This document shows positions 49,035 through 54,273 of a DNA stretch of 56,707 nt, one piece after another (position 1 is the first letter of the stretch; each line of letters opens with the position of its first letter). This stretch comes from an uncultured Pelagibacteraceae bacterium (GTDB lineage Bacteria; Pseudomonadota; Alphaproteobacteria; Pelagibacterales; Pelagibacteraceae). Location of the stretch: contig CACDOF010000004.1 of assembly GCA_902554315.1 (NCBI GenBank), positions 1-56,707 on the forward strand. The letters run 5' to 3'. The notes beneath the pieces were generated by a model. It did not search any database. It saw only the letters and a program-made list of their open reading frames with translations, and had not been told where the DNA came from. The translations under genes and the position numbers were made by a program.

Positions 49035-50132
49035 TTAAATTATTCCGTTAATTTTACAAGAACTATCAAAATCTTCTTTATTAATATAGCATCCAGAAAT
49101 CTTTCTAGTTCCACTAAAAGAAGCTCTTCCATGAAGAATACGCCAATTATTAAAAATTAATAGATCACCTGGTTTTAATATATGTCGCCATTGATAATTT
49201 TTATCGTTAGCTATTAAATCAAATTTTTTTATAGCTGAATAAAATTTTTTAGTTAGTTCATTATCAAATCTAAATGGTGCTCTATCATAATTATTGAAGC
49301 TCACTTGAATAATTTCTTTATTTTCATTTAATTTAAATATTGGTCTTTCGGCTTCTAAAAAAACTCCATCACCAATATAATTTCCTTTCACATTTGTATT
49401 TGATAATATATTGAATATTTCATTATCAGAATTTTTTATTTCTTCTGCAATCTTAAGACCATCAACCATAATTGACTCACCTCCTTCAGCAGAATATTCA
49501 CAACATAATAACAATTGAAGACCAGGCGCATCGTTACTATATGTTGCATCTGTATGTGGTCTTAACTCTTCTTGAGTATATGCACTATCAGCTTTATTTT
49601 CATTTGACTGGAAGCTCCACAGTCCACCAAATATTGAATTTCTTACATAACCAATTTTATTTGCAATCTCTTCAACTGGGTTCATATTTTTTTCACAATT
49701 TTTCAAAACAATAAAACCATAATCGTATAAAATTTTTAGAAAATTTTTAAAACCTTGTTTTGTTTTAGTTTCTTTGAATTCAAAAAATATATTTGAATTT
49801 AAATCTTTAGCTTTCCAAATATTATATTTTGATTTCTTTTTATTATTATTAACAATATTTTTAGATAAAAATTCGTAAGAATAATTAACTGGCTTATCTA
49901 AATCTGGCCATAAAATACTTAAAGATTTACCATTCTCTAAAATTTCAACATTTTTTATTTTTAAATCTAAGTCTAATCCAGCTGTAAAAGTTTTTCTTTG
50001 ATTGGATCTTTTATCCCAGTTAATTTCATCCTTAGCGTGATCTCTGAGCCATATGTTTGTAAAAGTTTCAGAATTTTCATTATTAAATTGAACTTTCAAA
50101 TTATCTGATGATATCTCAATTTTAGTGATCAT
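49035..50132 (-). CDS. TauD / gamma-butyrobetaine-hydroxylase-type 2-oxoglutarate dioxygenase
   Basis: Fe(II)/2-oxoglutarate-dependent dioxygenase of 365 aa. Residues 5-95 resemble the N-terminal domain of gamma-butyrobetaine or trimethyllysine hydroxylases (TNIWLRDHAKDE), but the zinc-binding cysteines of that domain are absent. The catalytic domain has the facial triad H193 and D195 in RPHTDATYS and H334 in RILHGRASF, with the 2-oxoglutarate arginine probably in the GTRKISG block. The likely substrate is a betaine-type or quaternary amine, by analogy only. Its start overlaps the aceF stop by 4 bp, coupling it to pyruvate dehydrogenase. Confidence 0.83.
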   Translation of the reverse strand: MITKIEISSDNLKVQFNNENSETFTNIWLRDHAKDEINWDKRSNQRKTFTAGLDLDLKIKNVEILENGKSLSILWPDLDKPVNYSYEFLSKNIVNNNKKKSKYNIWKAKDLNSNIFFEFKETKTKQGFKNFLKILYDYGFIVLKNCEKNMNPVEEIANKIGYVRNSIFGGLWSFQSNENKADSAYTQEELRPHTDATYSNDAPGLQLLLCCEYSAEGGESIMVDGLKIAEEIKNSDNEIFNILSNTNVKGNYIGDGVFLEAERPIFKLNENKEIIQVSFNNYDRAPFRFDNELTKKFYSAIKKFDLIANDKNYQWRHILKPGDLLIFNNWRILHGRASFSGTRKISGCYINKEDFDSSCKINGII

Positions 50133-51055
50133 TTACTCAAATTATAAGCAAAATTTGGTCCTAAATTATTTTTTAAATCATTGTTAAATTTAGCAGCTTC
50201 TGCCCCATCAATTATTCTGTGATCATAAGAAAGAGATAATGGAAGCATCGTTCTTGGAATGAATTTTCCATCTATGAAGACTTGTCTTTTATAACTTCTT
50301 CCAACCCCAAGTATTGCTACCTCTGGGAAATTTATAATTGGTGTAAAAAAAGATCCTCCAATTCCGCCAAGACTAGTTATTGTTATTGAACCACCAAAAA
50401 ACTCCTTTTTATCAATTTTTAAATTTCTACAATCATCACTTACTTTTTTTAGTTCTTGTCCTAATTCTTTTATATTTTTTTTGTTTGCATTTCTTATTTT
50501 TGGAACCATTAACCCATGTGGTGTATCTACAGCTATCCCAACATGAAAGTATTTTTTTAATGTAATTTTTCCATTTTTTATGTCGTCAATAGAAGAATTA
50601 AAACTTGGGAATTTTTTTAATGATGAAACAATTGCTTTAATAATAAATGCTAAAGGGGTAATTTTAATTCTTTCGCCAGTAAAGTTGTCTGTGATAGAGT
50701 TCCTGAACTCCTCCATTTCAGTAATATCAGCTTCATCGTGATTTGTTACATGGGGTATATTAGTCCAAGAATTAGATAAATGAGGAGCTGCAATTCTTTT
50801 TACTCTAGGGATATCTTTTATTTCAACTTCGCCAAATTCAGAATGATCATACTCATTTTTAATTAATTTCTCTTTTGTAGATTTTTTCACTTGATCATTA
50901 TTATTTATTGTTAAGGAAACAAAATCTTTTAAATCTTTTTCTATAACTCTACCTATTCTTTGAGATCCTGTTACTTGGTTTATATCTACACCTAACTCTC
51001 TTGCAAATTTTCTTACTTTTGGGCTTGCTGATATTTTTTTTATTTTATCTGACAT
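50129..51055 (-). CDS. aceF: Pyruvate dehydrogenase E2 (dihydrolipoyl acetyltransferase) lacking a lipoyl domain
   Basis: E2 of pyruvate dehydrogenase, 308 aa instead of the usual 400-630. It begins directly with the peripheral-subunit-binding domain (ASPKVRKFARELGVDINQV and RIGRVIEKDL, about 9-45), a linker, and the trimeric acetyltransferase domain (about 75-308). The active-site His and Asp are H279 and D283 in YDHRIIDG. No lipoyl domain precedes it: the start ATG is immediately after the aceE TAA. The lipoyl domain that E2 needs is fused to E1 in the neighbouring gene. Confidence 0.93.
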   Translation of the reverse strand: MSDKIKKISASPKVRKFARELGVDINQVTGSQRIGRVIEKDLKDFVSLTINNNDQVKKSTKEKLIKNEYDHSEFGEVEIKDIPRVKRIAAPHLSNSWTNIPHVTNHDEADITEMEEFRNSITDNFTGERIKITPLAFIIKAIVSSLKKFPSFNSSIDDIKNGKITLKKYFHVGIAVDTPHGLMVPKIRNANKKNIKELGQELKKVSDDCRNLKIDKKEFFGGSITITSLGGIGGSFFTPIINFPEVAILGVGRSYKRQVFIDGKFIPRTMLPLSLSYDHRIIDGAEAAKFNNDLKNNLGPNFAYNLSK

Positions 51056-54000
51056 TTACATTTTTGTAGGCATAGGTTTATTTTTATCAATCCCATATTT
51101 TTTTATTGCATCTTCAGCATGTTTTGATGCAACCAATTGTTCATTTGCTAAAATACTTAAGCTAAATGCAACAACATGTTCCTTATCAACTTCAAAAAAA
51201 TTTCTTAGATTTTTTCTTGTATCGCTTCTTCCATATCCGTCAGTGCCTAAGGAATAAAAACTTTTTTTCGTATAAGGTCTAATTTGATCAGCATTTAACC
51301 TCATATAATCTGAAGCTGCTAGTATTGGTCCTTGTTGCTTTCCTAAGCACTCTTCTATGTACGATTTTTTATTTTTTTCTCCTGGATTCAATAAATTTTG
51401 TCTCTCAGTTTCCAATCCATCTTTTCTTAATTCGTTAAAACTTGTAACACTCCAAACTTCGCTATCAATTTGATAGTCTTTTTTAAGAATATCTGAAGCT
51501 GCAATCATTTCTCTTAATATTGCTCCAGATCCTAACAATTGAATTTTAGCCTTTTGAGATTCTGAAGACCCTTTTATTTTATACATTCCTTTAAGGATAC
51601 CATTCTCACAATCTTTTGGCATTTCGGGATGAGAGTAATTTTCATTCATCGTAGTTATATAATAAAAAATATTTTCATTTTTTTCATGCATTCTTCTTAA
51701 TCCTTCTCGAAAGATTGTTGCAAGCTCATAATGAAATGTTGGATCATAAGATAGACAATTAGGAATAGTTGATGAAAGCAAATGACTATGTCCATCTTGG
51801 TGTTGCAAACCTTCTCCTGCAAGTGTAGTTCTTCCTGCGGTAGCTCCAATTAAAAACCCTCTTGCTTGACTATCACCTGCGGCCCAGGCAAAATCTCCTA
51901 TTCTTTGAAAACCAAACATTGAATAAAAAAGGTATATAGGAATCATTTCAATATCGTGATTTGTATAAGCTGTGCCCGCAGCAATCCAAGATGACATTGA
52001 TCCAGACTCTGTAATTCCTTCTTCTAATACCTGGCCACTCTTTTCTTCTTTATATGATGAAAGTTGTGCTGAGTCTTCTGGTTCATATTTTTGGCCTTCG
52101 TGTGCATATATGCCAATCTTTTGAAAAAAACCTTCCATTCCAAACGTTCTAGCCTCATCAGGAATTATTGGAACTAACTTCGAAGCAACGTTTTTATCTC
52201 TTAATAAATTAGTCAACATTCTTACTAACGCCATTGTTGTTGACATTTCTTTTGTTCCTGTTGAAGTCTTCATAAAATCAAAAATATCTTTACTTGGAAC
52301 TTTTATTGGTTTTGAATAAGAAGTTCTCTCAGGAATAAATCCTCCTAAATCGATTCTTCTTTTTTTCAAATATTTTATTTCTTCAGAATTTTCATCAGGT
52401 TTGAAATATTCTATATTTTTTACCTGGTCATCTGTCAAAGGCACATCAAATCTATCTCTGTAATATAAAAGATCATCAACATCTAATTTTTTTTGTTGGT
52501 GAGTAGTGTTTACACTTTCGCCACTTTTTCCCATACCATATCCTTTTATTGTTTTAGCTATAATTACTGTTGGACTTCCTCTATGATTTACTGCCTTATC
52601 GTAAGCTGCATAAACTTTATGTGGATCATGACCACCTCTATTTAAACGCCAAATGTCTGTATCAGACATTGATGATACTAACTCTAAAGTTTCAGGATAT
52701 TTTCCAAAAAATTTTTCTCTTACATAAAGTCCATTTCTTGCTTTAAAAGCTTGATATTCACCATCTACTGTTTCATTCATTATCTTAACAAGATGTCCAG
52801 TTTTATCGTTTGCAAGAAGAGAGTCCCAATAAGAACCCCAGATTACTTTTAAAACATTCCAACCTGATCCTCTAAAAATACCTTCAAGTTCTTGAATTAT
52901 TTTTCCATTACCTCTTACTGGCCCATCTAATCTTTGTAAGTTGCAATTAACTACGAATATTAAATTATCTAAGTTTTCTCTTGCTGCTAAACCAATTGCA
53001 CCAAGAGACTCTGGTTCATCCATTTCACCATCTCCAAGAAATACCCAAACTTTTCTTCCTTCATCTTTTATCAACCCTCTATTAATTAAATATTTCATAA
53101 ATCTAGCTTGATAAATTGCAAGCATAGGTCCTAATCCCATAGAAACAGTTGGAAACTGCCAAAAGTTTGGCATAAGCCAAGGGTGCGGATATGAGGATAA
53201 TCCTCCTGGTTTTACTTCTTGTCTAAATTTATCTAATTGTTTTTTATTTAATCTTCCTTCAAGGAATGCTCTTGCATACATTCCTGGAGCGCTATGTCCT
53301 TGAAAATAAATTAAATCACCACCAAACTTATTATTTTTTGCTCTCCAAAAGTGATTCATGCCAACATCATACAAAGTTGCCGCTGACGCAAAAGTGCCTA
53401 TATGTCCACCAAGTTCAGGATATTTTTTATTTGCTCTTACAACCATTGCAGCTGCATTCCATCTTATAAATGATCTAATCTTTCGTTCGATATTTTGGTC
53501 ACCTGGTGATTTTTTTTCTTCATCTGGTGGAATTGTATTTATATATGGTGTTGTTTGAGTATGAGGGATTTTTGATCCAGCTTTATAAGATTGGTCAATC
53601 AATTTTTTAATTAAAAAATGTGCTCTCTCAGATCCATCATTTTGTAATACTGCACTTAATGACTCTAACCATTCTTTTGTTTCAATTGGATCAATATCAT
53701 CACTGCTTGATGACATTTTTACTTCATTTGCCAACCTAGTTTGTTTAGTCTCTCTAACTTTGTTTTCAGCTACACGAGCCTTTTTTTCTGTAGCACTTTC
53801 GGCTTCTTGTATAATCTTTTCTGTTACGGGAGGTATTTCTTCATTTGTTTTTTTAACTTCTTTTTGATCTTCATTATTACTTTCACTAGAGTCTAAAGTT
53901 AGAATTAAATCTCCTTTAGATACTTTGTCGCCAATTTTTACTTTGATATTTTTTATTGTACCTGCAAAATTTGATGGAACTTCCACGCTTGATTTATCGC

Positions 54001-54118
54001 TTTCGAGTGTTACTACAGCATCGTTTTTATTGATTTTGTCACCTTTTTTTACAAGTATCTCGATTATCTCAACATTCTCGAAATCTCCAATATCAGGAAC
54101 TAATAGTTCTAAACTCAT
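51056..54118 (-). CDS. aceE: Pyruvate dehydrogenase E1 (homodimeric type) with N-terminal lipoyl domain
   Basis: Thiamine-diphosphate-dependent E1 that decarboxylates pyruvate. The 1020-aa chain is longer than the roughly 890-aa E. coli-type E1. Residues 1-76 form a lipoyl domain (LLVPDIGDFENVEIIE) with lipoyl-lysine K42 in ESDKSSVEVPS. Residues 77-134 are a charged, flexible Glu/Lys-rich linker. From M135 (SSSSDDIDPIETKEW) the sequence follows the canonical E1 start, with the ThDP motif GDGEMDEPES through CNLQRLDGP, and GTDGYGRSDTR near the end. The fusion lies in one uninterrupted frame. The paired aceF lacks a lipoyl domain, which supports a real domain relocation. Confidence 0.95.
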   Translation of the reverse strand: MSLELLVPDIGDFENVEIIEILVKKGDKINKNDAVVTLESDKSSVEVPSNFAGTIKNIKVKIGDKVSKGDLILTLDSSESNNEDQKEVKKTNEEIPPVTEKIIQEAESATEKKARVAENKVRETKQTRLANEVKMSSSSDDIDPIETKEWLESLSAVLQNDGSERAHFLIKKLIDQSYKAGSKIPHTQTTPYINTIPPDEEKKSPGDQNIERKIRSFIRWNAAAMVVRANKKYPELGGHIGTFASAATLYDVGMNHFWRAKNNKFGGDLIYFQGHSAPGMYARAFLEGRLNKKQLDKFRQEVKPGGLSSYPHPWLMPNFWQFPTVSMGLGPMLAIYQARFMKYLINRGLIKDEGRKVWVFLGDGEMDEPESLGAIGLAARENLDNLIFVVNCNLQRLDGPVRGNGKIIQELEGIFRGSGWNVLKVIWGSYWDSLLANDKTGHLVKIMNETVDGEYQAFKARNGLYVREKFFGKYPETLELVSSMSDTDIWRLNRGGHDPHKVYAAYDKAVNHRGSPTVIIAKTIKGYGMGKSGESVNTTHQQKKLDVDDLLYYRDRFDVPLTDDQVKNIEYFKPDENSEEIKYLKKRRIDLGGFIPERTSYSKPIKVPSKDIFDFMKTSTGTKEMSTTMALVRMLTNLLRDKNVASKLVPIIPDEARTFGMEGFFQKIGIYAHEGQKYEPEDSAQLSSYKEEKSGQVLEEGITESGSMSSWIAAGTAYTNHDIEMIPIYLFYSMFGFQRIGDFAWAAGDSQARGFLIGATAGRTTLAGEGLQHQDGHSHLLSSTIPNCLSYDPTFHYELATIFREGLRRMHEKNENIFYYITTMNENYSHPEMPKDCENGILKGMYKIKGSSESQKAKIQLLGSGAILREMIAASDILKKDYQIDSEVWSVTSFNELRKDGLETERQNLLNPGEKNKKSYIEECLGKQQGPILAASDYMRLNADQIRPYTKKSFYSLGTDGYGRSDTRKNLRNFFEVDKEHVVAFSLSILANEQLVASKHAEDAIKKYGIDKNKPMPTKM

Positions 54119-54196: not shown

Positions 54197-54273
54197 GCGC
54201 CTGTAGCTCAATTGGATAGAGCGCTTGGCTACGGACCAGGAGGTTCTGGGTTCGACTCCTAGCAGGCGCACCA
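54197..54273 (+). tRNA. tRNA-Arg (anticodon ACG)
   Basis: A 77-nt tRNA from GCGCCTGTAGCTC to an encoded CCA. The acceptor stem GCGCCTG pairs with CAGGCGC, and the discriminator is A. The anticodon arm is CTTGG-CTACGGA-CCAGG, so the anticodon is ACG (A34 probably edited to inosine), reading CGU, CGC and CGA. The D- and T-arms are standard (GGTTCGACTCC region). It is divergent from aceE and just upstream of a small membrane-peptide reading frame. Confidence 0.97.

Follow-up and report, generated by a model that had tools for sequence, protein, structure and literature searches.

Textbooks describe the 2-oxo acid dehydrogenase complexes as having a lipoyl swinging arm on E2, and in an ordinary E2 this arm is attached just ahead of the subunit-binding domain. 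In the E. coli type of pyruvate dehydrogenase (PDH) complex, a homodimeric E1 (AceE) works with an E2 (AceF) bearing tandem lipoyl domains. Lipoyl domains can also be located on other subunits. The model NF008854/PRK11892 represents the beta subunit of an alphaproteobacterial heterotetrameric E1 with an N-terminal lipoyl domain (Zymomonas, Sinorhizobium), and PDB entry 5u25 is an example of an E3 subunit with an N-terminal lipoyl domain; E2 retains its own lipoyl domain in the former systems and still has arms in the latter. PDH E2s have been described with one to three lipoyl domains (PMC8421416), and the use of a lipoyl domain in trans, borrowed from AceF, is documented for actinobacterial OdhA (PMC10415282), such as that of Corynebacterium. 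In this paper, we analyse a DNA stretch of 56,707 nucleotides (the window) from an uncultured Pelagibacteraceae bacterium (GenBank assembly GCA_902554315.1, contig CACDOF010000004.1, positions 1 to 56,707 of the forward strand), in which an aceE gene encodes a homodimeric-type E1 fused to a lipoyl domain, while the adjacent aceF encodes an E2 that has none.

We consider it probable (roughly 0.85), on the strength of the sequences compared, that this locus encodes a working PDH complex in which the swinging arm on E1 is the only one to carry acyl groups. Lipoyl domains on E1-beta and E3, as well as an E1–E2 fusion with lipoyl use in trans, are already known; no precedent for a lipoyl-AceE fusion paired with a separate arm-less E2, or for a lipoyl-E1 of SAR11, was found among the entries listed in searches of an open-access library, which lacks most subscription journals. 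The SAR11 hosts are very abundant ocean bacteria, and how attachment point and number of arms affect channelling is a long-standing question that paired natural enzymes of this kind would make directly testable.

The fused aceE and its arm-less neighbour

The fused E1 is encoded by a single frame of 1020 codons with an ATG start (51056-54118, minus strand), and the ATG of E2 comes directly after the E1 TAA, starting on the next base. The two genes and their parts, with the evidence for each, are the following (aa, amino acids; ORF, open reading frame; AF2, AlphaFold2; pLDDT, predicted local distance difference test score).

51056..54118 (-): fused aceE, lipoyl domain + linker + homodimeric pyruvate dehydrogenase E1, 1020 aa (ORF, Pfam, NCBIfam)
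53888..54118 (-): lipoyl domain, residues 1-77, Pfam 5-75 (Pfam; in AF2, six beta strands, block pLDDT ~65-77)
53993..53995 (-): codon of the lipoyl-lysine K42 (alignment)
53705..53887 (-): charged linker, residues 78-138 (ORF, alignment)
53798..53836 (-): conserved linker island IPPVTEKIIQEAE, residues 95-107 (pattern in 71/87 fused E1 rows)
53576..53701 (-): presumed E2-docking N-terminus, E1 residues 140-181, equivalent to E. coli E1p 6-47 (match to PDB 9h1n chain C, 49 aa)
51065..53704 (-): E1 homodimeric region, residues 139-1018 (NCBIfam aceE, alignment to E. coli E1)
50129..51055 (-): aceF without lipoyl domain, 308 aa (ORF, Pfam, NCBIfam, fold search)
50930..51031 (-): peripheral subunit-binding (E3_binding) domain of E2, residues 9-42 (Pfam)
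50162..50821 (-): E2 acetyltransferase catalytic domain, 2-oxoacid_dh, residues 79-298 (Pfam, fold search, DHRxxDG motif)

Residues 5-75 of the fused E1 match Pfam Biotin_lipoyl (PF00364) with 70.8 bits against a cut-off of 22.1, and AceE/transketolase domains follow. The NCBIfam model aceE (TIGR00759) aligns with residues 139-1018 over positions 3-883 of its 885, at 1428 bits against a cut-off of 860; compared with the norm of the AceE family, the chain carries 138 extra N-terminal residues, including the lipoyl domain. K42 sits within ESDKSSVEVPS, and H540, the equivalent of E. coli H407, a residue to which we presume a functional role, is invariant in all 48 aligned E1s. The original prediction, made from the letters of the stretch, had placed a lipoyl domain on E1 and denied one to the adjacent aceF, and the domain searches bear it out on both counts; the linker is charged, as had been said, and only its length, given as 58 residues, has to be corrected to about 60, the lipoyl domain ending near residue 77 and the E1 homology beginning at 139-140. 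The 137 N-terminal residues score 102 bits with the PDH E2 model TIGR01348 and 43 bits with the 2-oxoglutarate dehydrogenase (ODH) E2 model sucB; the lipoyl domain is therefore of the PDH E2 type, and its source was probably aceF.

In the E2 (50129-51055), Pfam found no lipoyl domain, giving only E3_binding and 2-oxoacid_dh, and TIGR01348 was covered only from position 281 to 579 of 587, with 333.6 bits against a cut-off of 552.1. The closest solved relatives by sequence include the E2p of E. coli and Azotobacter, and the fold search agrees with a cubic-core E2p from rank two on (template-modelling score by target 0.75-0.76, root mean square deviation ~13), rank one being an integrative model. 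D278, H279, R280 and G284 of the DHRxxDG motif are invariant in 37/37 aligned E2s.

The locus thus resembles the E. coli-type complex in having an AceE above the threshold of its family, aligned with residues 6-883 of the 886 of the E. coli protein, an E2 that keeps the subunit-binding domain and matches the cubic-core E2p, and an E1 that keeps the N-terminal docking segment, but it differs in the distribution of the lipoyl domains, of which E1 has one and E2 none. With the lipoyl-E1-beta systems it shares a lipoyl domain on the E1 polypeptide, although E1 is here of the single-chain AceE type; positions 2-137 of NF008854 (464 positions) match residues 2-133 with 21.5 bits, which does not reach the cut-off of 454. 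The lipoyl-bearing E3 is similar in that the domain lies away from E2 (residues 12-88 of 5u25 match 3-79 of E1), and different in that the domain sits on E3. Actinobacterial OdhA/KGD likewise combines an E1 fusion protein with an E2 activity that has no lipoyl domain of its own (PMC10415282); that system, however, joins E1 and E2 in one chain and uses the arm of a further E2, whereas the present one has E2 as a chain by itself and the arm on E1, and no 2-oxoacid_dh domain was matched by Pfam in the fused E1, unlike in such a two-in-one enzyme.

Lipoyl carriers, selection and occurrence

The window is contig C4 of a 958-kb assembly in 44 contigs, 65% complete. Three Biotin_lipoyl matches were found in this genome: the fused E1, an E2 on contig C10 and a short biotin-type frame, which adjoins a biotin-carboxylase-like gene and shows the biotin-type motif AMKTM (by eye). 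The C10 E2, of 433 codons, is flanked by an E1o-like frame on one side and an E3-like frame on the other (labels by eye); the genome contains two 2-oxoacid_dh cores in total. The lpd copy over the family cut-off (TIGR01350), the gene that the original prediction had proposed to look for, is the one on C10, and the portion read there begins without a lipoyl domain. lipA is present.

The arm-less E2 was also read directly in 12 near-complete relatives (92-99%; G004, G804, G850, G881, G891, G903, G925, G987, G1009, G1017, G1019 and G1037). Their Biotin_lipoyl matches fall in three places, namely E1, a frame of 436-454 aa and a frame of 119-151 aa that we take as a biotin carrier; G925 has a fourth, weak match (28 positions, 22 bits). 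In 12/12, the 436-454 aa frame lies between E1o-like and E3-like frames (by motif; two of the E1o-like and one of the E3-like frames were confirmed by family search) and is over the cut-off of the 2-oxoglutarate E2 models NF004309 and TIGR01347, i.e. it is of the sucB type. G004, the only one of the 12 in which the 2-oxoacid_dh cores were counted, has two. Two less complete arm-less genomes (G016, G034) show only E1 and the short frame among their Biotin_lipoyl matches. Of 14 genomes, 12 have an lpd above cut-off (TIGR01350, one copy each), and 12 a lipA above cut-off. A second lipoyl-bearing PDH E2, which would have spoken against the original prediction, was not found in the window genome (65% complete) or in the 12 relatives (92-99%). 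Because the only other lipoyl-bearing E2 of the 12 relatives is of the 2-oxoglutarate type, the E1 arm should be the sole acyl carrier of PDH.

The lipoyl part of E1 is under purifying selection. The lipoyl lysine is K in 60/60 E1 and 41/41 E2 lipoyl rows. Writing the number of lipoyl domains on E1 and E2 as 1+0, 1+1 and so on, the ratio of non-synonymous to synonymous substitution rates (dN/dS), pooled over 20 close pairs that partly overlap, was 0.040 for the E1 lipoyl part in 1+0 lineages, 0.110 in 1+1 and 0.096 in 2+1 lineages. The pooled value for the E1 catalytic part was 0.026-0.029, being 0.029 in pairs with an arm-less E2, equal to the 1+1 pairs; for the linker of single-arm E1s it was 0.17-0.28.

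The fusion is common among close relatives, as the original prediction would lead one to expect. It is shown by 29 of 37 same-genus genomes, the window's own counted: 27 have it in one long frame (in one case without the first 26 residues, at a contig edge), in G032 the frame is broken, and in G030 it is cut by the contig end. Among the eight others (55-92% complete), G010 has a plain AceE only, G021 only a stretch of 30 residues at a contig end that matches the fused N-terminus, and the remaining six no E1-specific match. Downstream of the 29 fused E1s, E2 is without a lipoyl domain in 10 genomes and has one in 17; in G036 it is split between frames, the lipoyl domain being present, and in one genome it was not reached. 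The arm-less state of the window is therefore in the minority within its genus. An origin of the fusion in a frameshift or mis-assembly was ruled out, because the same arrangement is seen in many separately assembled genomes.

In a sample of 297 genomes of the family, at least 263 gave a match, including at least 120 of the 127 genomes that are at least 90% complete and all 14 genera, with a threshold that also takes in plain AceE and lipoyl-only matches; the arm-less E2 was read in eight genera (g1, g457, g458, g461, g463, g464, g465 and g467). In 24 genomes of the order's other family, the matches to the E1 part stayed at ~1e-7 or weaker (short transketolase-like frames). Strong homodimeric AceEs were found in 11 of 385 genomes sampled from the class, five of them fused and all five within the window's family. 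In the phylum sample, 161 of 398 genomes had a match at 1e-60 and, among the matches listed, only those of the window genome and of one other family member start within the lipoyl region. None of 52 AceE loci outside the family that were read directly has a lipoyl domain on E1; E2 was readable in 46 of them and always carries one or two such domains. For nine AceEs with long open upstream frames, tblastn gave no lipoyl match upstream at E<=10. The class, phylum and upstream searches, together with the loci read, rule out that a lipoyl-AceE fusion is common in other Proteobacteria.

Several family genomes also encode a second, plain AceE-like protein of 884-902 aa without lipoyl domain, ~52-54% identical (L035:1489-4143, minus strand; such frames also occur in G011, G013, G018, G027, G158, G822 and G839). 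For the L035 protein, TIGR00759 (over cut-off) and an 'AKGDH_not_PDH' model (under cut-off) score nearly equal, and no E2 was found beside it. The aceEF genes and multiple aceE copies are mentioned in a SAR11 paper (PMC10030771).

History of the two arms and alternative readings

The tree of the E1 catalytic part comprised 100 rows, 91 from the family and nine from the outgroup; the broken L033, the cut L034, the plain AceE L035 and the duplicates L067, L097, L174 and L176 were left out. On this tree, the fusion is a single change on a branch with a support of 100, which indicates one origin of the fused E1, at the root of the SAR11 family (very probably Pelagibacteraceae). The 91 family rows are distributed as 1+1 (46), 1+0 (32), 2+1 (4), 1+2 (3) and 2+2 (1), with one side unreadable in five; some rows were picked for looking arm-less, and these fractions are not a survey. 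The absence of the E2 arm requires seven changes on the E1 tree, or eight losses under Dollo parsimony, where regain is forbidden, and a minimum of six by either count when branches with a support under 95 are collapsed. The tree of the E2 core (70 rows) gives six changes, three of them forced by starred branches. The trees indicate that the E2 arm was lost separately about six to eight times.

Counted from the start codon, the alignment to the window's E2 sets in after 1-15 aa in the 36 arm-less E2 rows and after 114-218 aa in 54 rows with arms (duplicate rows included in both). The E1–E2 spacing is similar: 35 of the arm-less rows have -4 to 6 bases and one has 28, and the armed rows have -1 to 7. 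This points to a clean in-frame excision of the E2 arm. In a tree of the lipoyl domains, an ODH outgroup formed so long a branch that it distorted the topology; without it, neither the E1 lipoyl domains as one clade (approximately unbiased test, p-AU 0.968) nor the E2 lipoyl domains as one clade (0.883) was rejected, in an analysis in which 78 columns resolve little and the free search missed better trees.

The original prediction described the lipoyl domain as moved from E2 to E1. This has to be revised: E1 gained an extra copy once, while the E2 copy was kept in most relatives read and was lost later, repeatedly, and the E1 tree, with its single fusion and several later E2 losses, rules out a one-step move. 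In the scenario that we propose, the N-terminal lipoyl–linker part of aceF would have been duplicated onto the start of the neighbouring aceE in the family ancestor, perhaps through a tandem aceE–aceF duplication followed by deletion. The two sets of arms would have been redundant, and streamlining genomes would have deleted the E2 arm about six to eight times independently, one of these losses giving the lineage of the window. The natural series found in one family (2+2, 2+1, 1+2, 1+1, 1+0) suggests a movable tether point and an E2 arm that can be deleted repeatedly. Two tandem lipoyl domains on E1 (1111-1133 aa) are present in L185, L186, L181, L038 and L039, from genera where E2 has one or two; in L182 and L183, it is E2 that carries two, and E1 has a single one.

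A PDH that works in these cells must use either the arm of E1 or that of ODH, and the PDH-type sequence of the E1 lipoyl domain favours the former. That the arm-less E2 borrows the single lipoyl domain of the 2-oxoglutarate E2 in trans, in a mixed supercomplex where the E1 domain would be regulatory or structural, has the OdhA precedent on its side, and the window genome and all 12 near-complete relatives do contain a sucB-type lipoyl-bearing E2 together with lpd. We nevertheless consider it very unlikely, given that the E1 lipoyl domain scores as PDH-type and not ODH-type, that its lysine is invariant in the rows read, and that, again in the rows read, no loss of an E2 arm falls outside the family with the arm on E1. 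It is also very unlikely that the complex is inactive or decaying, with a degenerate truncated E2 and acetyl-CoA coming from elsewhere: selection on the E1 catalytic part is the same in arm-less-E2 pairs as in 1+1 pairs, four residues of the E2 motif are invariant, and the arm-less state extends over eight genera. Decay would agree, however, with six same-genus genomes at least 90% complete that have no E1 match, showing that the complex can be absent, with the frame-broken E1 of G032 and with the E2 motif of one arm-less clade, in which Asn replaces Asp. Translation from M135, in which case the upstream part would not be made, is extremely unlikely, even though an ATG is there in the window. 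In 87 fused E1 rows (two duplicates included), an in-frame ATG within the last 16 codons before E1 was found in nine, while an ATG at the lipoyl N-terminus was found in 83, and the upstream region is under purifying selection; a start at M135 would have counted against the original prediction.

Returning to the reading of a PDH complex with its only arm on E1, some points weigh against it, or against the history outlined above. The case for a lipoylated, expressed and active complex is drawn from sequence, and the AF2 model of the fused E1 (pLDDT 53.7) is too weak to place the arm or to support the geometry. As the window genome is 65% complete, the absence of a second PDH E2 there rests on the relatives. 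The expectation that the E1 arm is more constrained where it is the sole one agrees with the pooled pairs (0.040 vs 0.110), but the difference on the whole tree was slight and non-significant (rate ratio 1.75 vs 1.97, with 9/60 column bootstraps reversed); given this and the overlapping pairs, we claim purifying selection, and not tighter selection in 1+0 lineages. D283 of the E2 motif is D in 33/37 aligned E2s and N in 4/37, the latter being all four rows of one arm-less clade (L031, L032, L085, L095). The PDB title of a catalytic study on the Azotobacter E2p names Asn614, which we take to be the same place in the motif. Finally, the direction of loss rather than regain rests on the E2 arms of the outgroups, and in single cases the E2 arm may have been regained by recombination from the E1 copy.

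Proposed working of the complex and its surroundings

In the complex as we envisage it, lipoate made by LipA would be attached to K42, and E1 would decarboxylate pyruvate and reductively acetylate an arm, either the one on the same chain or the one on the partner chain of the dimer. The N-terminus of E1 would dock on the subunit-binding domain of E2, and the linker of ~60 residues would let the lipoyl domain reach the E2 core and pass the acetyl group to CoA. The arm would then visit E3 bound to other subunit-binding domains, this E3 being the lpd product shared with the 2-oxoglutarate complex.

The presumed docking segment is kept just behind the linker, where E. coli E1p 6-47 aligns with E1 140-181; in PDB entry 9h1n, an E1 peptide of 49 residues from this region is accompanied by a chain of the E2 subunit-binding domain. 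N-terminal binding of E1 to E2 is given as a general mode for E1s of alpha2 structure in a review (PMC8146983). Since the arm is joined through the linker to the segment that docks on E2, it would stand on the other side of the same contact as in an ordinary E2, and the invariant lipoyl lysine and the kept docking N-terminus suggest that it probably still springs from the E1–E2 junction. The anchor point may thus have changed little in space, which would explain why the switch was tolerated, and the 'different channelling geometry' of the original prediction may be overstated. What would change is the number of arms per complex, as the arms would follow bound E1 and not E2, and the E2 chains holding E3 would have none.

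The linker is poorly conserved save for the island IPPVTEKIIQEAE (95-107), whose pattern is missing from some genera; in a simple pattern search of the other frames of the fetched loci, it was found only in a fragment of the broken G032 E1. The island may be a docking helix. A further and rather doubtful idea is that each E1 dimer would bring two arms to a core without any, the E2–E3 assembly being catalytically mute without E1, and that the helix-like island IPPxTExIIxEAE would be an extra docking element steering the E1-borne arm to E2 or E3, making the E2 arm repeatedly dispensable.

These genes may be miscalled in automatic annotation where a lipoyl domain is expected on E2. In L033 (G032:C3), a genome with an arm-less E2, the fused E1 is split over three frames, by either a sequencing error or recent decay. 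In the window, a gene for a TauD/gamma-butyrobetaine-hydroxylase-like dioxygenase (49035-50132, minus strand) overlaps the end of aceF by four bases; in the relatives L024 and L029, its place after the E2 region is taken by an EamA-like transporter frame (by eye). On the other side, a tRNA-Arg (acg) gene lies at 54197-54273 on the opposite (plus) strand, ~80 bases upstream of the fused aceE.

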